NCBI RefSeq assembly: GCF_003751265.1 | Contig: NZ_RJKN01000001.1 | Span: 372,001-436,000 of the forward strand | From: Pseudokineococcus lusitanus | Lineage (GTDB): Bacteria; Actinomycetota; Actinomycetes; Actinomycetales; Quadrisphaeraceae | Length of the DNA stretch: 64,000 nucleotides | Direction of reading: 5' to 3' | Part shown: piece by piece, positions 2,028 to 64,000 of the stretch | Numbering within the stretch: position 1 is the first letter of the stretch | Layout of the letters: each line of letters begins with the position of its first letter | The notes under the pieces: model-generated | Database searches by the model: none | Seen by the model: only the letters and a program-made list of their open reading frames with translations | What the model was told of the DNA's origin: nothing | Program-made: the position numbers and the translations under genes

Positions 2028-3025
2028 GGCGTCGGCCCCGCCGCCATGCCGGTCCCCGGACGGATGCCGTGGACGTCCTCGCCGACGAGCAGCGCCTCGG
2101 TGTCCGGCCAGAGCCGCTCGCGCGAGCGCCGCTCGGCGGGGCGGACGAGCGCGGAGACGAGGACGGCCACGGCCAGGCCCATGACCAGCAGCGGGAGCCA
2201 GGTCACCGGCGCGCTGCCGCCGAGCCCCCAGGCGGTGGCCGCGGTGGGCCAGGTCTGGAGGCAGGTCACGAGCGCCAGCAGGAGCGGCAAGGACACGAGG
2301 TCCCGGAGGAGCTGCCCGCGCAGCACGTCGTCCCACGCCAGCTCGAGCGCGCTGCCGGCCGGCTGCTGCTGCGCCAGCACCCGGCGGCAGACGAGCTCCA
2401 GGGCGACGAGGGCGACGACCAGCACGGCTGCGGCGGCGGCCGGGGCGACGACGACCGACCAGGCCACCCGTCCCACGGAGGCGGCGACGGCGAGGCCGGC
2501 GGCCGCCGCCGCGGACAGGCCGACGACCAGGCGCACGGCCCCGGTCTCCGGGTGAGGGACGTAGTCGGCGAGGTGCGGCGACCTGACCCGCGCCACCCGT
2601 GGGGCCCCCAGCACCGGCTGCTGCAGCGCCTGGTGGCCCGCGACGAGGGCGGAGGCCGTGGCACGCCCGGCGAGGAGCAGGGCCACCGCGAGGAGCAGGG
2701 GCAGCCAGTCGGCTCCGTCCGGCACGGCCACGGGCGAGCCGTCCGGGACGCCGGTCGCGCGGGCGACGAGCACGACGGCCAGGACGAGGACGGCGACGAC
2801 GAGGCCGCCGCAGGCCGCGGCGAGGTCCCTCCGCAGCATCCGCTCGACGACGCGCTCCTGCAGGGCAGCCCCTCTGGCGCCGCTCGACGCCGGCATGGGG
2901 AGCCCGGCCCTCAGGGCCAGGGGCTCGACGACCCGCTCCCCGGACGGCGGCCGACGGACGGCCACCAGCCGCCGGACGACCTGGAGCAGGGACAGACCGG
3001 TGAGGACGGACCAGACGACGACCAC
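2024..3025 (-). CDS. Multi-pass membrane protein cotranscribed with the GntR regulator
   Basis: A 333-residue protein with several hydrophobic segments (for example VVVVWSVLTGLSLLQVV at the N-terminus, then leucine/valine-rich spans around residues 75, 110, 175 and 205, and a pair near 255-300) separated by Arg-rich loops, so an integral membrane protein. I do not recognise a family. GTG at 3025 is chosen because GAGGGG (3033-3038) sits 7 nt before it and a good promoter lies just upstream at 3068-3096. An in-frame ATG further upstream would overlap that promoter. It precedes and overlaps the GntR gene, so it is probably the membrane target or permease-like partner that the regulator controls. 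Confidence 0.7.
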   Translation of the reverse strand: MVVVWSVLTGLSLLQVVRRLVAVRRPPSGERVVEPLALRAGLPMPASSGARGAALQERVVERMLRRDLAAACGGLVVAVLVLAVVLVARATGVPDGSPVAVPDGADWLPLLLAVALLLAGRATASALVAGHQALQQPVLGAPRVARVRSPHLADYVPHPETGAVRLVVGLSAAAAAGLAVAASVGRVAWSVVVAPAAAAAVLVVALVALELVCRRVLAQQQPAGSALELAWDDVLRGQLLRDLVSLPLLLALVTCLQTWPTAATAWGLGGSAPVTWLPLLVMGLAVAVLVSALVRPAERRSRERLWPDTEALLVGEDVHGIRPGTGMAAGPTP

Positions 3026-3067
3026 GGCGGGACCCCTCGGAGACCGACGACGGCTGGGACGTCGATC

Positions 3068-3096
3068 AACGTATCGACCCATGTATCGCCGGTCAA
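3068..3096 (-). promoter_or_regulatory. Promoter with direct-repeat operator candidate for the GntR operon
   Basis: On the minus strand, TTGACC (3091-3096) and TACGTT (3068-3073) are separated by exactly 17 nt, a near-consensus housekeeping promoter that is rare in such GC-rich DNA. The spacer and -10 contain two copies of CGATAC 12 bp apart (plus-strand GTATCG at 3071-3076 and 3083-3088), a plausible site for autorepression by the GntR protein. Confidence 0.65.
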
Positions 3097-3119
3097 GGAC
3101 AACGGCCGGTACGAAGTGC

Positions 3120-3485
3120 TCAGGGACGCCGGCGTGCGGCCTTCTCGGCCGCCCGCTTCTTGGCGTTCCAGTCCCGCATCCGCTGCGGGTAGCCGGTGAA
3201 GTTGACGTCGTAGAAGGGCATCGCGAGGTCCTGCGCGAAGCGGCGGGCCGTGGCGGCGTCGGGGACGCGGCGCCGCGTCCACTCGCCGTCCGTCGCGATG
3301 AGCAGGAGCGTGAGGCCGGTGTCGTGCGTGGCCGGCTCGAGGTAGGCCTCCACGCCGACGCGGGTCCGCGCGAAGTCGGTGAGGTGCGCGGAGGACTCGC
3401 CCTTCTGGGCGCGGCTGGGCTCGGCCGTCGCGCCGCCCTCGGCACCGGCGGTCGCCCGCCCGAGCACCCGGGACCACCAGCCCAT
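3120..3485 (-). CDS. Conserved actinobacterial protein of unknown function
   Basis: A 121-residue soluble protein starting with MGWWSRVLGR and containing a conserved-looking core: HLTDFARTRVGVEAYLEP, then a hydrophobic strand LTLLLIATDGEWTRRRVP, then FAQDLAMPFYDVNFTGYP and a Lys/Arg-rich tail. I recognise the pattern as an actinobacterial hypothetical found next to lpdA but know no function. It is divergent from lpdA with about 260 bp between starts. ATG at 3485 gives the natural N-terminus. No signal peptide or membrane segment. Confidence 0.7.
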   Translation of the reverse strand: MGWWSRVLGRATAGAEGGATAEPSRAQKGESSAHLTDFARTRVGVEAYLEPATHDTGLTLLLIATDGEWTRRRVPDAATARRFAQDLAMPFYDVNFTGYPQRMRDWNAKKRAAEKAARRRP

Positions 3486-3746
3486 GCCGACCTCCGTACC
3501 GCCGTCGTCGCGCCGGGGTGGCCCCCGGTCGCCCGCCACGGTAGCCGCGCGCAGCTCGCCGGGACCCCCGTGCGGCCTGGGAGCCACCTGTGGAGCAGCG
3601 CTGCCGCCCCGCCGCGGCGGGCCCGGCGGCGTCCCGTTCCCCGCCCCGGACGGGGTAGTGCCAGGATGGGCCCGCCTCCGGCCCGGGCGCGCAGACCGCG
3701 GCGACCGGCGGGGGCAGGTCCGTCCAGCGAGCCCGAGGAGCCACGC

Positions 3747-5144
3747 GTGCCCGAGTCCACCGCCGACTTCGACGTCGTCGTCCTGGGGGGTGGCAGCGGG
3801 GGGTACTCCGCCGCCTTCCGCGCCGCCGAGCTGGGCCTGTCGGTCTGCCTCGTCGAGAAGGCCGAGCTGGGGGGCACCTGCCTGCACCGCGGCTGCATCC
3901 CCACCAAGGCGCTCCTGCACACGGCCGAGGTGGCCGACGCCGCCCGCCACGCGGAGAGCTTCGGCGTGCAGGCGTCCTACCAGGGCATCGACATCGCCAC
4001 GGTCAACAAGTACAAGGACGGCATCATCAGCCGCCTGTACAAGGGCCTGCAGGGCCTCGCCAAGGCCCACAAGATCACGCTGGTCGCCGGCACCGGCCGT
4101 CTCGTGTCCCCGGGCACCGTCGAGGTCGACGGGCAGCGCTACACCGGCAAGGACGTCGTCCTCGCCACCGGCTCCTACTCTAAGAGCCTGCCCGGCCTGG
4201 AGATCGGCGGCCGCGTCATCACGAGCGAGCAGGCCATCAAGCTGGACGTCGTGCCCGAGCGCGTCGTCGTCCTCGGCGGCGGCGTCATCGGCTGCGAGTT
4301 CGCCAGCGTCTGGAAGTCCTTCGGCGTCGACGTGACCATCGTCGAGGCGCTCCCCCGCCTGGTCGCCGTCGAGGACGAGGCCGCCAGCAAGGCGCTCGAG
4401 CGGGCCTTCAAGAAGCGCAAGATCAACTTCTCCACCGGCGTCCGCTTCAAGGGCGTCACCCAGGACGACAGCGGCGTCCACGTCGAGCTGGAGGACGGCA
4501 AGACCTTCGACGCCGACCTCATGCTCGTCGCCGTGGGCCGCGGCCCCTCGACGCAGGGGCTCGGCTACGAGGAGGCCGGCGTCACGGTCGACCGTGGCTT
4601 CGTCATCACCGACGAGCGGCTCCGCACGGGCGTCGAGACCGGCAACGGCGGGCACGTCTACGCCGTCGGCGACATCGTCCCGGGCCTCCAGCTCGCCCAC
4701 CGCGGCTTCGCGCACGGCGTCTTCGTCGCCGAGGAGATCGCCGGCCAGCAGCCGGCCCCCGTCGTCGACGCGCTCATCCCCCGGGTCACGTACTCCAACC
4801 CCGAGATCGCCTCCGTCGGCCTCACCGAGCGCCAGGCGCGCGAGCTGCACGGCGACGACGCCGTGGAGGTCCTCGAGTACAACCTCGGCGGCAACGGCAA
4901 GAGCCAGATCATCGGCACGCAGGGCTTCGTCAAGCTCGTGCGGCAGAAGGACGGGCCGGTCGTCGGCTTCGTGGCCGTCGGCGAGCGCATGAGCGAGCAG
5001 ATCGGCGAGGCGCAGCTCATCGTCAGCTGGGAGGCCTTCCCCGAGGAGGTCGCCGCCCTCGTGCACGCGCACCCCACCCAGAACGAGGCGCTCGGCGAGG
5101 CCCACATGGCCCTCGCCGGCAAGCCCCTGCACAGCCACGCCTGA
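3747..5144 (+). CDS. lpdA: Dihydrolipoyl dehydrogenase (E3)
   Basis: The E3 flavoprotein of pyruvate and 2-oxoglutarate dehydrogenase complexes. It reoxidises dihydrolipoamide on the E2 subunit and reduces NAD+. 465 residues. FAD-binding GGGSGG at 14-19; redox disulfide Cys45 and Cys50 in [12 protein letters not shown]-binding GGGVIG; FAD-contact YAVGDI; catalytic His442-Glu447 pair in HAHPTQNE. Start is GTG at 3747 with GAGGAG (3735-3740) 6 nt upstream. It lies 83 bp before sucB, its E2 partner, and the two are probably cotranscribed. Assignment is secure. Confidence 0.96.
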
Positions 5145-30333: not shown

Positions 30334-30731
30334 GCGGACGAGTCGGCTGGGCGGCCGCGTCGTCGTCCTCCGGGACGGCGCCGAGGAACGTCCGGGCTCC
30401 GCAGGGCAGGGTGGTGGGTAACGCCCACCCGGGGTGACCCGCGGGACAGTGCCACAGAGAGAAGACCGCCACGGACCGTCCTCGGACGGCCCGCGGTAAG
30501 GGTGAAACGGTGGTGCAAGAGACCACCAGCACCCCCGGTGACGGGGGTGGCTCGGCAAACCCCACCCGGAGCAAGACCAGACAGGCAGCGTCCGAGGGCG
30601 GCCCGCCCGAGCTGCCGGGTAGGTCGCTGGAGGCGTGCGGCGACGTACGCCCGAGATGGATGGTCGCCCCCTCGCCAGTGCCGGTGACGGCGGCGGGGGA
30701 CAGAACCCGGCGTACAGGCCGGCTCGTCCGC
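30334..30731 (+). ncRNA. rnpB: RNase P RNA, bacterial type A
   Basis: Catalytic RNA that matures tRNA 5' ends. Ends are defined by the P1 helix: GCGGACGAG (30334-30342) pairs with CTCGTCCGC (30723-30731), giving about 398 nt. Internal hallmarks in the right order: GAGGAACGTCCGGGCT (P3/P4 side), CACAGAGAGAAGACCGCC, GGTAAGGGTGAAACGGTG, GTGCAAGAGACCACCAGC, CTCGGCAAACCCCACC, GAGCAAGACCAGACAGG, and GACAGAACCCGGCGTACAGG near the 3' end. Recognition is by these conserved blocks. The stretch 30732-30880 between rnpB and the next gene holds GC-rich inverted repeats but no gene that I can support. Confidence 0.95.
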
Positions 30732-49464: not shown

Positions 49465-49537
49465 TGGGCCCGGCCGGTCTCGAACCGACGACATCCGCGG
49501 TGTAAGCGCGGCGCTCTACCAGCTGAGCTACGGGCCC
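49465..49537 (-). tRNA. tRNA-Val (anticodon TAC)
   Basis: 73 nt. Acceptor GGGCCCG/CGGGCCC with discriminator A, D arm GCTC-AGCTGGTA-GAGC, anticodon arm CCGCG-CTTACAC-CGCGG (anticodon TAC, reads GUA/GUG), T arm GTCGG-TTCGAGA-CCGGC. All stems pair. CCA is not encoded. The 5' end overlaps the stop codon of the upstream peroxiredoxin gene. Confidence 0.96.
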
Positions 49538-56960: not shown

Positions 56961-57026
56961 GTCGACCCCTCGCTGCTGTGCCTGCCCGCACCGCCTCGGC
57001 CCCTCCGCCGGGAGCAAGGTCGCTGG

Positions 57027-57977
57027 GTGCTCGTCATCACGTGCCCCGGGCAGGGGTCCCAGAAGCCCGGCTTCCTCGCCCCCTGGCTCGAGGTCCCCGG
57101 CGTCGCCGACCACCTCCACTGGCTGTCCGCCGTGACCGGCCTCGACCTCGAGGCCCACGGCACCACCTCCGACGCGGAGACCATCCGCGACACCGCCGTC
57201 GCGCAGCCCCTCATCGTGGCCAGCGGCCTCGTGGCGCTGCGGGCGCTGACGGACGGCACGGACGACCTCGACCTCGTCGGGGCCCTGGCCGGCCACAGCG
57301 TCGGCGAGATCACCGCCGCCGCCGCGGCCGGGGTCCTCTCCGAGGAGCAGGCGGCCGTCCTCGTCCGCGAGCGGGGCCGCGCCATGGCGGCCGCGGCCGC
57401 CGCCACGCCCACCGGCATGAGCGCCGTCGTCGGCGGCGACCCCGAGGACGTGGCCGCGGTGCTCGCGCGCCACGGCCTCGTCGCGGCCAACGCCAACGGC
57501 GCGGGCCAGGTGGTCGCCGCCGGCACGACCGAGCAGCTCGAGGCCCTCCGGGCCGACGGCCCCGCCCGCGCCCGCGTCATCCCGCTGCAGGTCGCCGGCG
57601 CCTTCCACACCGAGCACATGGCGCCGGCCGTCCCCGCCCTGGCCCGGCTGGCCGGCGCCGTCGCCCCGCGCGACCCGCGCGTGCCGGTCGTCTCCAACGC
57701 CGACGGGACGGTCGTCGCGGACGGCCGCGAGGTGCTGGACCGGCTCGTGCGCCAGGTGGCGCGCCCGGTGCGCTGGGACCTCTGCGCGGAGACCTTCGCC
57801 GACATGGGCGTCACCGGCCTGCTCGAGGTGCCGCCCGCCGGCACGCTGGCCAACCTCGCCAAGCGGTCGCTGCCGGGCGTCGAGACCTTCGCCCTCACCA
57901 CGCCCGACCAGCTGGACGACGCGCGCGCCTTCGTCGCCCGCCACGGCGAGCGGCGCACCTCGGGCGGTGCCGCGTGA
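57027..57977 (+). CDS. fabD: Malonyl-CoA:ACP transacylase FabD
   Basis: Loads malonyl from CoA onto AcpP. 316 residues. N-terminal CPGQGSQKPG (oxyanion), nucleophile Ser91 in GHSVGE, catalytic His in GAFHTEHM, and LEVPPAGTLANLAKR at the end. GTG at 57027 follows GGGAGCAAGG. Overlaps fabH by GTGA. First gene of fabD-fabH-acpP-fabF, all on one strand with FasR upstream. Confidence 0.95.
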   Translation: MLVITCPGQGSQKPGFLAPWLEVPGVADHLHWLSAVTGLDLEAHGTTSDAETIRDTAVAQPLIVASGLVALRALTDGTDDLDLVGALAGHSVGEITAAAAAGVLSEEQAAVLVRERGRAMAAAAAATPTGMSAVVGGDPEDVAAVLARHGLVAANANGAGQVVAAGTTEQLEALRADGPARARVIPLQVAGAFHTEHMAPAVPALARLAGAVAPRDPRVPVVSNADGTVVADGREVLDRLVRQVARPVRWDLCAETFADMGVTGLLEVPPAGTLANLAKRSLPGVETFALTTPDQLDDARAFVARHGERRTSGGAA

Positions 57978-59044
57978 GCGCTGACGCCGTGGGCACCAGC
58001 GGCACCGGCGGGGCGACCCCGCCGCGCCGCGAGCGCCCCACGCTGGCGACCCGCCGCGGCCCCGAGCACGCGCGGATCATGGGCGTCGGCGCCTGGCGGC
58101 CGACGCGTGTGGTCACCAACGCCGAGGTCTGCGAGCACATCGACTCCACCGACGAGTGGATCCGCCAGCGCACGGGCATCGAGTCCCGCGGGTGGGCGGA
58201 CGCGGAGACGTCGGTGATCGACATGTCGGTGCACGCCGGCGCCGAGGCCCTCGCCGCGGCGGGCGTGGACGCGTCCTCGATCGGCGCCGTCATCGTCGCG
58301 ACGGTGTCCCACCCCTACCAGACCCCGGCCGCCGCGACGCAGGTCGCGGACCGCCTCGGCGCGACACCCGCCGCCGCGTGGGACATCTCGGCGGGGTGCG
58401 CGGCCTTCTGCCACGCCCTCGCGCAGGCCGCCGACCTCGTGCGCGGCGGCACCGCCGAGCACGTGCTCGTCGTCGGCGTCGACAAGCTGAGCGACTTCAC
58501 CGACCTCACCGACCGCTCGACGGCGTTCCTCTTCGCCGACGGCGCGGGCGCCGTCGTCGTCGGACCCTCCGACACGCCGGCCATCGCGCCGACGGTCTGG
58601 GGCTCCGACGGCTCGATGTGGGACGTCATCAAGACCCGCACCTCCTGGCTGGAGCACCGCGGCGTCACCGACCCCGCGGCCGTCGAGTGGCCGGCGCTGC
58701 AGCAGGAGGGCCAGAAGGTCTTCCGCTGGGCCGTCTTCGCCATGGCGCCGCTCGCGCTGCGGGCCATCGAGGCGGCGGGCCTGACGCCGGACGACCTCGA
58801 CGCCTTCATCCCGCACCAGGCCAACATGCGGATCATCGACAAGCTCGCCTCGCAGGTGGGCCTGCCGGATCACGTGGCGATCGCCCGGGACATCCGCACG
58901 ACGGGGAACACCTCCGCCGCGTCGGTCCCCCTGGCGATGCACCGCATGCTCGCCGAGGGCCAGGCGGCCTCGGGCGGCTACGCGCTGCTCGTCGGCTTCG
59001 GCGCCGGCCTGTCCTACGCCGCCCAGGTGGTCGTGCTGCCGTGA
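57974..59044 (+). CDS. fabH: 3-oxoacyl-ACP synthase III FabH
   Basis: Starts fatty-acid chains by condensing an acyl-CoA with malonyl-ACP. 356 residues, ~30 longer at the N-terminus than E. coli FabH (basic Thr/Arg-rich extension). Cys142 in DISAGCAAF, His in IPHQANMRI and Asn in TGNTSAAS form the catalytic triad. Extension STDEWIRQRTGIESR is the substrate loop. GTG at 57974 overlaps the fabD stop. Followed by 136 bp with two hairpins before acpP. Actinobacterial FabH often uses branched-chain starters. Confidence 0.95.
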   Translation: MSADAVGTSGTGGATPPRRERPTLATRRGPEHARIMGVGAWRPTRVVTNAEVCEHIDSTDEWIRQRTGIESRGWADAETSVIDMSVHAGAEALAAAGVDASSIGAVIVATVSHPYQTPAAATQVADRLGATPAAAWDISAGCAAFCHALAQAADLVRGGTAEHVLVVGVDKLSDFTDLTDRSTAFLFADGAGAVVVGPSDTPAIAPTVWGSDGSMWDVIKTRTSWLEHRGVTDPAAVEWPALQQEGQKVFRWAVFAMAPLALRAIEAAGLTPDDLDAFIPHQANMRIIDKLASQVGLPDHVAIARDIRTTGNTSAASVPLAMHRMLAEGQAASGGYALLVGFGAGLSYAAQVVVLP

Positions 59045-59080
59045 CCGCCGCCGGCCGCCGCTGAGACGGCTCCCAGACCT

Positions 59081-59100
59081 CCCGCCGCCACCGCGGCGGG
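59081..59100 (+). other. Intercistronic hairpin between fabH and acpP
   Basis: CCCGCCGC (59081-59088) pairs with GCGGCGGG (59093-59100) with a 4-nt loop; a second 6-bp GCCGGC hairpin follows at about 59105-59122. Probably an mRNA processing or stability element, since acpP is normally the most abundant product. Confidence 0.45.
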
Positions 59101-59180
59101 ACCCGCCGGCCCCGCGGCCGGCACCCCCGACCGAGCACCACCCGAGGGCGCGCACCGCGCGCCGGACACGAGGAGCACCC

Positions 59181-59429
59181 ATGGCCCAGAGCGAGAACGA
59201 GATCCTCGACGGCATCGCCGAGCTCGTCAACGAGGAGACCGGCCTCCCCAAGGAGTCCGTCGAGATGGACAAGTCCTTCACCGACGACCTCGACATCGAC
59301 TCGCTGTCGATGACGTCGATCGTCGTCCACGCCGAGGAGAAGTTCGGCGTGACGATCCCCGACGAGGACAGCAAGAACCTCCGCACGGTGCGCGACGTCG
59401 TCGCCTACATCCAGCAGGCCCAGGGCTGA
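59181..59429 (+). CDS. acpP: Acyl carrier protein
   Basis: 82 residues, acidic. 4'-phosphopantetheine site Ser41 in DLDIDSLSM. Helices 2 and 3 (SLSMTSIVVHAEEKFGVTIPDED) give the usual fold. Carries acyl chains for FabD, FabH, FabF, and also supplies octanoyl-ACP for LipB. ATG at 59181 with GAGGAG 7 nt upstream, the strongest ribosome site in this operon. Hairpins on both sides. Confidence 0.96.
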   Translation: MAQSENEILDGIAELVNEETGLPKESVEMDKSFTDDLDIDSLSMTSIVVHAEEKFGVTIPDEDSKNLRTVRDVVAYIQQAQG

Positions 59430-59501
59430 CCAGCCCTCCGCTGCCCGTCCGGGGCAGCACCTCGGCGCCGTCCGCGCGCTGACCAGCGCGAGGACGCGCC
59501 G

Positions 59502-59534
59502 GGCCCGGCCCGGGCTCCCCGCCCGGGCCGGGCC
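59502..59534 (+). other. Intercistronic hairpin between acpP and fabF
   Basis: Perfect 14-bp stem (59502-59515 with 59521-59534), TCCCC loop, 73 nt after the acpP stop and 50 nt before fabF. A partial terminator or RNase-stop here would raise acpP relative to fabF. Confidence 0.6.
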
Positions 59535-59584
59535 GTCCTGCACACCCGGCACCACCCCCGCACCTCCCCCGAGGAAGGCACGCC

Positions 59585-60877
59585 ATGACCGACCAGACCT
59601 CGACCGCCACGCACGGCCGGGCGACCACCCGCGAGGTCGTCGTCACCGGCATGGGTGCCACGACGCCCCTCGGCGGGGACGTGCCCAGCACCTGGGAGGC
59701 CGCCCTCGCCGGCCGCTCCGGCGCCCGGCCGCTGACGATGCCCTTCGTCGAGGAGCTCAAGCTCCCCGTGACGTTCGGCGGCACGCTCGCCGTCCCGGCC
59801 GCCGACGTGCTGCCCCGGCACGAGATGAAGCGGCTCGACCCGTCCGCGCAGTACGCGCTGGTCGCCGGTCGCGAGGCCTGGGCCCAGGCGGGCTCCCCCG
59901 AGGTCGAGGGCGAGCGCCTGGGCTGCGTCGTCGCCACCGGCATCGGCGGCGTGACGACCCTCATCACCGCGTACGACGTGCTGAAGGAGAAGGGCCCCCG
60001 GCGGGTCCTGCCCCTCACCGTCCCGATGCTCATGCCGAACGGCGCCGCCGGCGCCCTCGCCATCGAGTTCGGGGCGCAGGCGGGCGCGCACAGCCCCGCC
60101 TCGGCCTGCGCCTCCGGCGCCGAGGCCATCGCCTACGGCGCGGAGATGATCCGGACCGGCCGCGCCGACGTCGTCATCGCCGGCGGCACCGAGGCCGCCA
60201 TCCTCGCGCTGCCCATCGCGGCCTTCGCGTCGATGCACGCCCTCTCCACGCGCAACGACACCCCCGAGACCGCCTCCCGCCCCTACGACGTCACGCGCGA
60301 CGGCTTCGTCCTCGCCGAGGGCGCGGGCGTCGTCGTCCTCGAGGCGGCCGAGCACGCCGCCGCCCGCGGGGCGTCCGTGCTCGGTGTCGTGGCCGGCGCG
60401 GGCATCACCTCCGACGCCCACCACATCGCCGCCCCGGACCCCGAGGGCCTCGGCGCCACCCGGGCGGTGCGGGCCGCGCTGCAGCAGGCCGGCGCCCAGC
60501 CGTCGGACGTCGTCCACGTCAACGCCCACGCCACGTCGACGCCCGTCGGCGACGTCGCCGAGGTCGTCGCCCTGCGCGCCTCGCTCGGCAGCGACCTCGA
60601 CCGGGTGTGCGTCTCGGCGACCAAGTCGATGACCGGGCACCTGCTCGGCGGCGCCGGCGCGCTCGAGACGATCTTCTGCCTCAAGGCGCTGGCCGAGGGC
60701 GTGGCCCCGCCCACCATCAACGTCACCGAGCTCGACCCGCAGGTCGACCTCGACGTCGTCCTCGACGAGCCGCGCGTCATGGTCACGGGCCCGGACGCGA
60801 TCGCGCTCAACAACTCCTTCGGGTTCGGCGGCCACAACGCCGCCCTCGCCCTCACCGGCCCGCGCGGTACCGCGTGA
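59585..60877 (+). CDS. fabF: 3-oxoacyl-ACP synthase II FabF
   Basis: Elongation condensing enzyme. 430 residues. Catalytic Cys175 in PASACASGAEA, His in VNAHATSTPVGD and His in KSMTGHLLGGAGALE, plus NNSFGFGGHNAAL near the C-terminus. ATG at 59585 follows GAGGAAGG. Last gene of the fab operon, followed by a 20-bp terminator. No accC/accD genes lie near. Confidence 0.95.
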   Translation: MTDQTSTATHGRATTREVVVTGMGATTPLGGDVPSTWEAALAGRSGARPLTMPFVEELKLPVTFGGTLAVPAADVLPRHEMKRLDPSAQYALVAGREAWAQAGSPEVEGERLGCVVATGIGGVTTLITAYDVLKEKGPRRVLPLTVPMLMPNGAAGALAIEFGAQAGAHSPASACASGAEAIAYGAEMIRTGRADVVIAGGTEAAILALPIAAFASMHALSTRNDTPETASRPYDVTRDGFVLAEGAGVVVLEAAEHAAARGASVLGVVAGAGITSDAHHIAAPDPEGLGATRAVRAALQQAGAQPSDVVHVNAHATSTPVGDVAEVVALRASLGSDLDRVCVSATKSMTGHLLGGAGALETIFCLKALAEGVAPPTINVTELDPQVDLDVVLDEPRVMVTGPDAIALNNSFGFGGHNAALALTGPRGTA

Positions 60878-61812: not shown

Positions 61813-62469
61813 ATGGACGCCGTGAGTGCCGACCACCGCCCCCGCCGCCCGACCTTCCTCGGTCCGCGGGCGATGGACAGCCTCGAGGGCCCCAGCGACC
61901 CCGCGGGCCGTGAGGCCGCCGCCCACGCCACCGCCCGGCTGCTCGTCGAGGGCGCGCAGGCGTCCGGCGACGAGGAGGTGGCGGCACGGCTCGTCCGCCT
62001 CGCCGACGAGCACGGGCTCGAGCTGCTCGCCGCGCTGTGGTCGGACGCCGCGCCGCAGTCGCTGCCCGGCGCCCTGTGGCGCCTCTACGTCCTCCGGCAG
62101 TGGGTGCACGCGGCGCCGGCCGAGGCGTCGCGGCAGTTCGACGAAGGACGCCGACGCGCCCCCGTGCTCGAGGTCGTCGCCGGCGTCGCCGACCCGCCCG
62201 GCCCGGACGAGGTCCGGCGCCAGGTGGACGCCGTGCTGGCCGGGGTGGCCACCGGCGACTTCGCCGACACCCTCGACCGCGCAGCGGCCTTCGCCCGCGT
62301 CGTCGCCGTGGGACGCGCGGACCTCGCCGACGACGTCGAGGGCGGGCCCGCGCCGGTCGGGGCGGGCGCCTCGGCGGACGACCTCACGACGTCGGCCGCC
62401 CGGCTCGTGCGGACGGCGGAGGACCTCGAGGGGTGCGCCGGGCGGTGGCGCTCCGGCGCGCTGCTCTGA
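61813..62469 (+). CDS. Conserved actinobacterial helical protein
   Basis: 218 residues. Begins MDAVSADHRPRRPTFLGPRA, then SDPAGREAAAHATARLLVEGA, EEVAARLVRLADEHGLELLAALWSDAAPQSLPGALWRLYVLRQWV and further helices. Databases sometimes carry misleading names for this family; I see no known catalytic motif and treat it as unknown. ATG at 61813 follows GGAG. Convergent with the GAF-GGDEF gene (7 bp apart). Confidence 0.72.
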   Translation: MDAVSADHRPRRPTFLGPRAMDSLEGPSDPAGREAAAHATARLLVEGAQASGDEEVAARLVRLADEHGLELLAALWSDAAPQSLPGALWRLYVLRQWVHAAPAEASRQFDEGRRRAPVLEVVAGVADPPGPDEVRRQVDAVLAGVATGDFADTLDRAAAFARVVAVGRADLADDVEGGPAPVGAGASADDLTTSAARLVRTAEDLEGCAGRWRSGALL

Positions 62470-62476
62470 GACCCGC

Positions 62477-63568
62477 TCAGCGGGAGCCGGTCACCGCCGC
62501 GTCGGCGGGAGCGGTGCGGGGCGAGGGCAGGGCGGCCGACCAGCTGGCCGCCTCCACCGCGTCGTCGCGGTGGACGACGAGACCCGCTCCGCCCGCGCGC
62601 TTGACGGCGTACATGGCGGCGTCGGCCCGTGCGAGCAGCTGGGCGGGGGTCGGGGTCGGCGCGTCGGCGGCGACGTGCGCCAGACCGACGCTCGCGCTGG
62701 ACGTCACGGCGTGCCCGTCGAGGTCGAGCCGTGTCGTCAGCAGGTCGCCGACGACCGCCGCCACCGTCTCGGGCGGGACACCGGTCTCGACGAGCACCGC
62801 GAACTCGTCCCCGCCGAGACGGGCCAGGGTGTCGCCGTCCTTGACCCGGGTCCGCCAGCCGACGGCGAGCTGCCGGAGCAGCTCGTCGCCCGCGCCGTGC
62901 CCGAGCGTGTCGTTGACGGCCTTGAAGTCGTCGACGTCGACGAGGAGGAGGGACACCGGGCGGCCGTCGGTGCGGTGGAGGTCGAGCGCGTGCTCCAGCC
63001 GGTCCTCGAGCACCCGCCGGGTGGCGAGCCCCGTGAGGCTGTCCTGGGTGGCCAGCCGCTCGAGCTCGGCCTCGCGGACGGCGGCGCTCTCGCGGAGCGT
63101 CTCCGCGGCGAGGATCTGCCCGAGGAGCGCGGCCAGGAGCCGCAGCAGCGGCGCGAGGTGCTCCGCGTGCTCGGCGTCGACCTCGTCGTCGTGGTAGCCG
63201 CAGAGGGTGCCGAAGACCTGGCCGTCGCCCGTGTGGATGGGGGCGCCGAGGTAGGCCCGGACCCCGATGTCCGTGACCGCGACCGTGTCCCGGTAGCCCT
63301 CGACGTCGAGGACCCGCGGCGCGACGGCCGGCCCTCCGGCCGCCATCTGCCGGCAGATCGAGCCCTGCCACGGCATGACCTGGTCGGGCACGAGGCCGAA
63401 GGTGCTGCCGCGCAGGTCGAGGAAGACCTGGTCGTCGTCGTCGCGGCGGGTGACCGCCCACAGGCCGAGCGGCAGCTCCCGCTGCAGGTAGTCGAGCACC
63501 TCGCGGCTGGCCTCCTCGAAGGTCCAGGCGCGTGGAGCCGTGAGGTCGGGCGGTGTCGTGCCGCGCAC
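62477..63568 (-). CDS. GAF-GGDEF diguanylate cyclase
   Basis: 363 residues, soluble. N-terminal GAF (about 15-160: LWAVTRRDDDDQVFLDLRG, PWQGSICRQMAAG, YLGAPIHTGDGQVFGTLCGY), a short linker helix, then GGDEF (about 172-330) with DSLTGLATRRV, LLLVDVDDFKAVND and intact GGDEF at 252-256. The RxxD inhibitory site is missing (a Lys occupies the Arg position). Synthesises cyclic di-GMP under control of an unknown GAF ligand. GTG at 63568 follows GAGGAGGG. The second c-di-GMP enzyme in the window; the other is the membrane GGDEF-EAL at 28.5 kb. Confidence 0.92.
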   Translation of the reverse strand: MRGTTPPDLTAPRAWTFEEASREVLDYLQRELPLGLWAVTRRDDDDQVFLDLRGSTFGLVPDQVMPWQGSICRQMAAGGPAVAPRVLDVEGYRDTVAVTDIGVRAYLGAPIHTGDGQVFGTLCGYHDDEVDAEHAEHLAPLLRLLAALLGQILAAETLRESAAVREAELERLATQDSLTGLATRRVLEDRLEHALDLHRTDGRPVSLLLVDVDDFKAVNDTLGHGAGDELLRQLAVGWRTRVKDGDTLARLGGDEFAVLVETGVPPETVAAVVGDLLTTRLDLDGHAVTSSASVGLAHVAADAPTPTPAQLLARADAAMYAVKRAGGAGLVVHRDDAVEAASWSAALPSPRTAPADAAVTGSR

Positions 63569-63734
63569 GTGCCCTCCTCGGTCGACGTCGGCGGTCGCCC
63601 TCGTATCGGCAGGGGCGGGCCCGACCTGAAGGCGCCGTCGGGCCCCGACCCGGCGGGCGCCGCACGCGCCCCGGACGGGGGACGAGTCCCACCGGCGGGC
63701 GCGACGTGGCGCCCACGGCGTGGTTACAGTTGGC

Positions 63735-63820
63735 GTGCGCCGGGCCGCGGTAGCCCCGGGCTCCACATGAAGCCGCTTCGAGCGGCGCTCGCGCCGAGAG
63801 GCGCTCCCGGCCCGGCGCAC
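63735..63820. other. Structured intergenic element, possible small RNA or complex terminator
   Basis: A 12-bp closing helix (GTGCGCCGGGCC at 63735-63746 with GGCCCGGCGCAC at 63809-63820) encloses three small hairpins, including AGCCC/GGGCT, GCCGCT-TCG-AGCGGC and GCGC/GCGC. A TACAGT box (63725-63730) precedes it on the plus strand; the other arm abuts the stop of the minus-strand NYN gene. I could not match it to a known RNA or tRNA. Bases 63569-63734 show nothing gene-like. Confidence 0.45.
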
Positions 63821-64000
63821 CTACTTGTCCGACGGACCGCCGACGGGGTCGTCGGTGCGGTCGTCGAGCAGCGTGCGGAGCCACCCGGGACCCCAGCTGC
63901 TCACCGGGACGCGGGCCCGCAGGCCGCGGTCCGCCGTGACGAGCACGACCTCCCCGCCGTCGAGGACCGCGCCCAGCTGCTCGACGAGGTCGACGAGCGC
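63821..64000 (-). CDS. NYN/PIN-like nuclease-fold protein, C-terminal fragment
   Basis: The last 59 codons of a minus-strand gene running off the right edge, ending TAG at 63821. Visible: ALVDLVEQLGAVLDGGEVVL, VTADRGLRARV and a WGPGWLRTLLDD segment, which match the C-terminal part of the actinobacterial NYN-type family often labelled NTP pyrophosphohydrolase. VTADRGL carries the acidic residue typical of this fold. Fragment only, so function is not certain. Confidence 0.6.
   Translation of the reverse strand, partial: ALVDLVEQLGAVLDGGEVVLVTADRGLRARVPVSSWGPGWLRTLLDDRTDDPVGGPSDK

Follow-up and report, generated by a model that had tools for sequence, protein, structure and literature searches.

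A structured element beside a convergent reading frame

What is the compact palindromic element near the end of this stretch of the Pseudokineococcus lusitanus genome, and from which strand, if either, is it transcribed? The window (the whole 64,000-nucleotide stretch of DNA that was analysed) had been given a preliminary description, which placed the hexamer TACAGT ahead of an 86-nt element and left that element unassigned. Both are present in the sequence, at 63725-63730 and 63735-63820, and the element consists of two long complementary arms that enclose three short inverted repeats. It also adjoins the stop of a reading frame, as had been claimed: the stop codon of a convergent ORF ends at 63821, directly after the element. 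The label "NYN gene" attached to that ORF remained unconfirmed, as a homologue of the ORF had no Pfam or NCBIfam match. The features discussed below are these.

61813-62469, plus strand: gene c0, encoding an unknown protein predicted to be all-helical; in other genomes, the gene most often found 5' of the RNA
62477-63820, minus strand: longest reading of a GAF-GGDEF ORF (Pfam GGDEF 4.1e-34, GAF 3.2e-07), whose true start is inferred to be probably near 63570
63700-63706, plus strand: weak -35-like CGCGACG, 18-19 nt before the -10 box, inferred by eye from the alignment of relatives
63725-63730, plus strand: -10 box TACAGT; TANNNT recurs 5' of the RNA in homologues
63735-63820, plus strand: core of the structured small RNA, supported by a covariance-model match (63733-63822), DNA matches in relatives and G-U pairs
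63735-63747, plus strand: 5' strand of the closing helix, with changes on both sides at 13 of 13 pairs
63808-63820, plus strand: 3' strand of the closing helix, paired with 63735-63747, 13 of 13 with double changes
63750-63753, plus strand: 5' partners of the covarying inner pairs 63750-63806 and 63753-63804
63804-63806, plus strand: 3' partners of the same two covarying pairs
63754-63765, plus strand: C-rich CCCCGGG-CUCCA segment, partly invariant among 83 homologues
63772-63786, plus strand: hairpin 2, GCCGC-UNCGA-GCGGC; in 9 of 83 homologues one pair is U-A instead of C-G, and the other four are invariant
63792-63803, plus strand: hairpin 3, CGCC, a GNRA-type loop and GGCG, kept in 83 homologues
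63821-64000, minus strand: 3' part of the convergent 308-aa ORF (2821-3747, minus strand, of locus L009, in which base 2821 is 63821)

The plus strand of the element folds with a minimum free energy of -58.0 kcal/mol, compared with -44.4 ± 3.5 kcal/mol for dinucleotide shuffles (z = -3.9), and none of 200 shuffles was as stable. The minus strand is more stable still (-64.3 kcal/mol, z = -4.8). The closing helix of the preliminary description is present but is 13 bp long and not 12. All three of its internal hairpins appear in the fold, and those at 63772-63786 and 63792-63803 are conserved in 83 homologues; the first, at about 63753-63762, is doubtful because 63753 covaries with 63804 and not with its partner in that hairpin.

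Compensatory changes and G-U pairs support a structured plus-strand RNA

We compared homologues in two alignments. Alignment A1 holds 36 sequences from the same order and alone was used to build a covariance model, R1; alignment A3 holds 83 sequences (82 sources, hand-picked for diversity) and was fitted to R1, and therefore leans toward the structure of that model. In A1, 10 of the 13 closing-helix pairs changed on both sides, and the whole structure had 54 double-change cells compared with 14.0 in shuffles. In A3 every one of the 13 pairs did so, and the whole structure had 211 double-change cells, compared with 55.2 ± 6.0 in shuffled alignments and 18-45 for slid structures. A lack of compensatory changes in related genomes would have refuted the preliminary description; the closing helix has them throughout.

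A model-free covariation scan bears on the junction between the closing helix and the core. Columns 28-93, which correspond to 63753-63804, ranked sixth, and this pair is G-C in 70 homologues, A-U in 7, C-G in 1 and unpaired in 5 of the 83. The seven A-U rows represent few lineages (L206/L207, L034, L214/L215 and both copies in L210). Columns 22-98, or 63750-63806, were among the best pairs outside the model, with G-C in 50 homologues, A-U in 8, C-G in 5, G-U in 1 and no pair or a gap in 19. The two pairs lengthen the closing helix inward and weaken the first internal hairpin. Hairpins 2 and 3 are almost invariant, which leaves little for covariation to show: only one pair has double changes. 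The loop of hairpin 3 is GAGA, GUGA or GCGA in 62 of 83 homologues and GACA, GACU or GUCA in another 20. In total, 25 alignment columns, many of them within helices, are identical in all 83 homologues, the most distant of which is 51% identical to the window RNA.

An alternative, rod-like fold was preferred by RNAalifold, and the pair counts fit the branched and rod-like folds equally well; nearest-neighbour energies favored the branched fold in all 83 sequences. Its core comprises hairpin 2, hairpin 3 and a short C-rich turn. The kinds of mismatch in the closing helix are informative about the strand. Its inner 11 pairs contain 69 G-U cells and 1 A-C cell, and all 13 contain 84 and 9, respectively; because G-U cells far outnumber A-C cells, the plus strand is taken to be the RNA. 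The remaining inner pairs have 5 of each and are uninformative, and the strand call therefore rests on the closing helix and on the promoters described below.

The RNA is found across the class Actinomycetes

Strong DNA matches to the element (E 1.4e-10 or better) were present in 36 of 39 genomes, comprising its own and 38 relatives, with 77-95% identity in the relatives. Of the other three genomes, one, which is incomplete, had no more than a 27-bp match (E 0.003), and two lacked any match. Within its own genome the element is single copy; the next match (E = 0.03) covers about a third of its length. Model R1 matched 167 of 296 genomes of the class Actinomycetes, among them the pair of same-order genomes that the DNA search had missed (G017 and G035). 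A sample of 100 genomes from the phylum gave 7 R1 matches, all within the class, and none in the 91 genomes outside it.

A wider model, R2, matched 177 of the 296 class genomes and 17 of 41 genomes in a family sample around G084. Since R2 contains sequences from some of the genomes that were searched, the R1 figures are the independent ones. R2 had no match in 119 of the 296, though it was built partly from that set; covariance searches of more than 40 genomes were run with Infernal's stricter filters, at the cost of weak matches. In named genomes, a pattern scan found at least 120 loci, among them Bifidobacterium, Brevibacterium, Cellulomonas, relatives of Actinomyces, Propionibacteriaceae, Curtobacterium, Ornithinimicrobium, Dermabacteraceae, Pseudokineococcus marinus and others, with Bifidobacterium, Curtobacterium and Cellulomonas over-represented. 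The presence of the RNA in Streptomyces and mycobacteria is an inference from gene context. Most of the genomes listed have one match each and a few have two or three.

Genomes G114 and G295 have three matches each, and locus L210 (3987-4260) carries two tandem copies; they are separated by about 180 nt, and each has a separate GGAAY...GTT promoter-like sequence.

Promoter-like boxes lie directly 5' of the RNA

Flanking sequences were compared at 185 placements, drawn from 26 of the 36 rows of A1 and from 78 of 80, 60 of 64 and 21 of 22 matches in further searches; these omit two truncated matches among the 80 and the window itself among the 22. Removal of 2 placements with short flanks and 13 repeats left 170 homologues for the promoter analysis. 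In 141 of the 170, a TANNNT word lay no more than 24 nt 5' of the RNA, compared with a mean of 10.3 and a maximum of 19 in 200 rounds of shuffling, and 135 of 146 such words began 7-12 nt ahead of the model start. The recurrence of TANNNT at about the same distance bears out the suggestion that the element has its own -10 box. From the position of that box we expect the transcript to begin at about 63735-63738 and to finish a few bases past 63820. A word resembling GCGAC or GAGAC recurs by eye at a -35-like position in the closest relatives, and no -35 signal emerged when all homologues were aligned on TANNNT.

A second type of promoter-like sequence, [CG]GGAAY-N14-18-GTT, was found in 29 of the 170 homologues; shuffled sequences gave a mean of 0.5 and at most 3, and a second run of the shuffle 0.6 and at most 4. 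In 28 of these 29, exactly 18 nt separate [CG]GGAAY from the GTT that follows, and other spacings between 8 and 25 nt are rare; the spacing was counted after the sequences had been viewed. In the available part of PMC3489674, the consensus of Mycobacterium tuberculosis SigH is given as (G/T)GGAA(C/T)A - 16 nt - (C/G)GTT, that of Streptomyces coelicolor SigR as GGGAAT(G/C) - 16 nt - (C/G)GTTG, and the SigA -10 box of Corynebacterium glutamicum as TANANT. The 18-nt spacing in the homologues equals the distance in the SigH/SigR consensus as reported there. One or other promoter type was present in 157 homologues, with both in 13 and neither in 13. A mirror test for promoters on the minus strand found TANNNT in 3 of 170 and the ECF-like sequence in none. 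The promoter of the window RNA itself has no GGGAAY box.

By sequence, the RNA has its own promoter, because TANNNT and/or GGAAY...GTT boxes lie directly 5' of it in homologues: SigA-like in most lineages, ECF-like in some and overlapping in several. Which sigma factor acts, SigA or one like SigR/SigH, is inferred, without a sigma-factor experiment. Immediately past the 3' end of the RNA, 65 of 170 homologues have 8 or more pyrimidines in 10 bases, versus 8 of 170 at bases 51-60, and at one streptomycete-like locus (L204) this region contains a strong terminator-like repeat; both are consistent with a transcript end close by. At six loci (L027, L031, L033, L046, L206 and L207) the promoter-like boxes lie about 30-60 nt farther upstream, and a small extra hairpin (for example, CCCTTCGGGG) stands ahead of the RNA.

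A stand-alone structured small RNA should have a promoter directly 5' and compensatory changes in its helices. Both are met, on sequence evidence alone, and on that footing the element is a plus-strand RNA gene selected for its shape and for an invariant core. That it is an independent RNA gene of some kind we regard as very probable.

Neighboring genes vary and argue against a purely local role

Genes beside the RNA were identified with a purpose-made rough gene caller based on codon GC and not from annotation. No gene is fixed beside the RNA over the 185 placements. The most frequent companion is c0. It was one of the two closest genes on one flank or the other in 88 placements, and lay immediately 5' in the orientation of the RNA in 72 and immediately 3' in the reverse orientation in 13; in the window, the GAF-GGDEF gene sits between c0 and the RNA. 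Matches to c0 occur in 89 of the 296 class genomes, 88 of which also have the RNA. The two are at most 300 bp apart in 67 of the 89 (seven of the 67 in convergent orientation) and within 6 kb in 79. Conversely, 88 of the 177 RNA-bearing genomes have c0 and 89 have no c0 match, and the RNA therefore does not need c0. The protein had no Pfam or NCBIfam match at E 0.01 and no PDB sequence match better than E 0.1. Its predicted fold is all-helical (pLDDT 85.5), and the predicted model matched no PDB chain at E 0.001 or better.

In two streptomycete-like genomes (L204 and L205) the RNA lies between a HelD/HelR-like gene, which it directly follows, and a malic-enzyme-like gene. The HelD/HelR-like label (an RNA polymerase recycling motor; the query was a 362-aa partial sequence) and the malic-enzyme-like label both rest on NCBIfam matches below the curated cut-offs. 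Three mycobacterium-like genomes have on one side of the RNA what we take, judging by its sequence, to be a carboxyltransferase-like gene, and two of the three have, on the same basis, a WhiB-like gene on the other side; the latter had no NCBIfam match.

A cis-acting 5' leader, a riboswitch or attenuator of, for example, a PhoU_div-Pit phosphate operon, would explain why PhoU_div (DUF47) and/or Pit (PHO4) genes are among the two nearest on one side at 59 of 185 loci, mostly downstream and in the same direction as the RNA (together with c0 in 22 placements). At the other loci, however, the next called gene is a different one or, as in the window, points toward the RNA, and the promoter boxes abut the RNA. 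We rejected a riboswitch or leader as the general role on account of these varied neighbors and the convergent ORF, and consider a leader improbable overall, although the 59 loci leave room for a cis role in the lineages concerned. In favor of an element that serves only as a bidirectional terminator at the end of the convergent ORF, the minus strand folds the more stably and the element abuts the stop codon. Yet the gene cluster of that ORF is a called neighbor in only 11 of 185 loci while the inner sequence is invariant, the G-U pairs and promoter boxes are specific to the plus strand, and no T run follows the element on that strand in the window. The RNA may also serve as a terminator; that it is an intrinsic terminator and nothing more we rejected, given the 25 invariant columns and the promoter boxes, and hold to be very improbable. 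Least credible, and given almost no weight, is a mobile palindromic repeat of the REP or MITE kind. The palindromic ends and the few genomes with two or three copies fit such a repeat, but most listed genomes have one match, often beside c0, and the single copy in P. lusitanus refutes the idea for this genome. Given these varying neighbors, a leader, a terminator or a repeat does not by itself account for the RNA, and we return to the independent RNA gene.

No Rfam family accounts for the element

The preliminary description had held that the element is not a tRNA, RNase P RNA (rnpB) or recognizable riboswitch, and searches agreed. At the gathering cut-offs of Rfam 15 (4227 models), no family was found at the window element or at the RNA in ten homologous loci. 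Up to E = 10, three matches at chance level lay near the element, with 16-17 bits compared with cut-offs of 71-94. The two streptomycete-like loci likewise had no family at cut-off; the best was Thr_leader with 29.5 of 55 bits (E 0.046). ARAGORN found no tRNA or tmRNA gene in 63000-64000, and a tRNA-like RNA was rejected on this result together with the lack of an Rfam match at the element. SRP RNA was rejected as well, as the one RF00169 match of the genome is elsewhere (G000:C2:94491-94587). The window contains only two matches at Rfam cut-offs, a class A RNase P RNA at 30339-30730 on the plus strand (270.9 bits) and a tRNA at 49465-49537 on the minus strand.

To our knowledge, few actinobacterial small RNAs are known beyond one genus. 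Literature searches, which did not cover supplements, found no description of a class-wide family of this kind. We take SCO2951 and SCO2952 of S. coelicolor to be malic enzyme and helicase genes. The available part of PMC3765725 has a naming rule for its own sRNAs that would place one called scr2952 beside SCO2952, and hence, on these gene identities, in the same gap between HelD-like and malic-enzyme genes as the streptomycete-like homologues. PMC8388888 reports confirmed expression of scr2952 and its conservation in over half of the Streptomyces tested. The same source describes it as being in Rfam, whereas the two streptomycete-like loci have no Rfam family at cut-off, which weakens the identification, and we found no structure or class-wide range described for it. 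The Streptomyces member of the family may be scr2952; sequence and strand are uncompared, and the original naming rule may differ. RF02826 was considered as scr2952 and rejected, since it is Scr6925.

The 6C RNA resembles the window RNA in being small, actinomycete and cytosine-rich in its conserved parts, but it has two stem-loops with six or more cytosines each (PMC8388888, as far as available), whereas in the window RNA a 13-bp closing helix encloses a branched core, and there is no Rfam call as 6C. PMC4046766 calls sRNA information in Actinobacteria "marginal" as of 2013 and describes sRNAs of C. glutamicum whose promoters are of SigA and SigH type. A term search of the available parts of PMC4803200, PMC9205884, PMC10771440, PMC6344877, PMC11678152 and PMC2864571, supplements excluded, found no passage on this RNA.

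How the RNA may act

Our overall reading is that the element specifies an independently transcribed structured small RNA that acts in trans, under housekeeping and partly ECF stress control. We put its probability at about 0.6, without transcript data. The product would be a compact non-coding RNA of about 90-100 nt transcribed from the plus strand, with RNA polymerase inferred to start where the 5' strand of the closing helix begins. The 13-bp helix and the pyrimidine-rich tail could then help halt transcription and shield both ends, and the multi-branched core, with its sequence-invariant helices, could offer a protein or a second RNA a place to dock. Expression would be housekeeping in most lineages and under ECF (SigR/SigH-like) stress control, or both, in others. 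Action in trans is inferred because the neighboring genes differ.

How the RNA would act in trans is less clear, and we make no firm choice between base pairing and a protein partner. The likeliest contact with a target would be the C-rich CCCCGGG-YYCCA segment, which suits G-rich ribosome-binding sites; regulation by base pairing has a chance that we place a little short of even, with no target identified. The sequence-invariant helices suggest a protein partner too. 6S RNA and mycobacterial Ms1 are stand-alone structured RNAs that act by binding protein, and the window RNA resembles them in being stand-alone and structured, but they are at least twice as long and of another shape, and the window RNA has no Rfam match. 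If it worked mainly in their manner, by binding RNA polymerase, a ribonuclease, the ribosome or an unknown protein and not by pairing with mRNA, this would account for 25 invariant columns in 83 diverse homologues, which exceed the needs of base pairing alone, and for the GNRA-type and UNCGA loops. The proximity of c0 (within 300 bp in 67 of 89 genomes, with the RNA in 88 of the 89) and the position of the RNA after the HelD/HelR-like gene in the two streptomycete-like loci, a match below the curated cut-off, point the same way. About half of the RNA-bearing genomes lack c0, however, its model has no confident fold match, and binding data are lacking; action through a protein is thus a possibility that we entertain only tentatively. 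A more far-reaching proposal is a class-wide ribonucleoprotein RNA that acts on transcription or translation, a counterpart of the Hfq-dependent global sRNAs, with c0 as a lineage-specific partner and several lineages switched to thiol- or envelope-stress sigma control. We think this unlikely and mention it as speculation.

An RNA present in more than half of the sampled class genomes (167 of 296), with a fixed fold and partly stress-type promoters, offers a single deletion target for comparison among harmless laboratory species, and it would form a new Rfam family. Elsewhere in the window, 56978-60877 on the plus strand carries fatty-acid synthesis genes, which from their translations we take to be ketoacyl synthases and acyl carrier protein.
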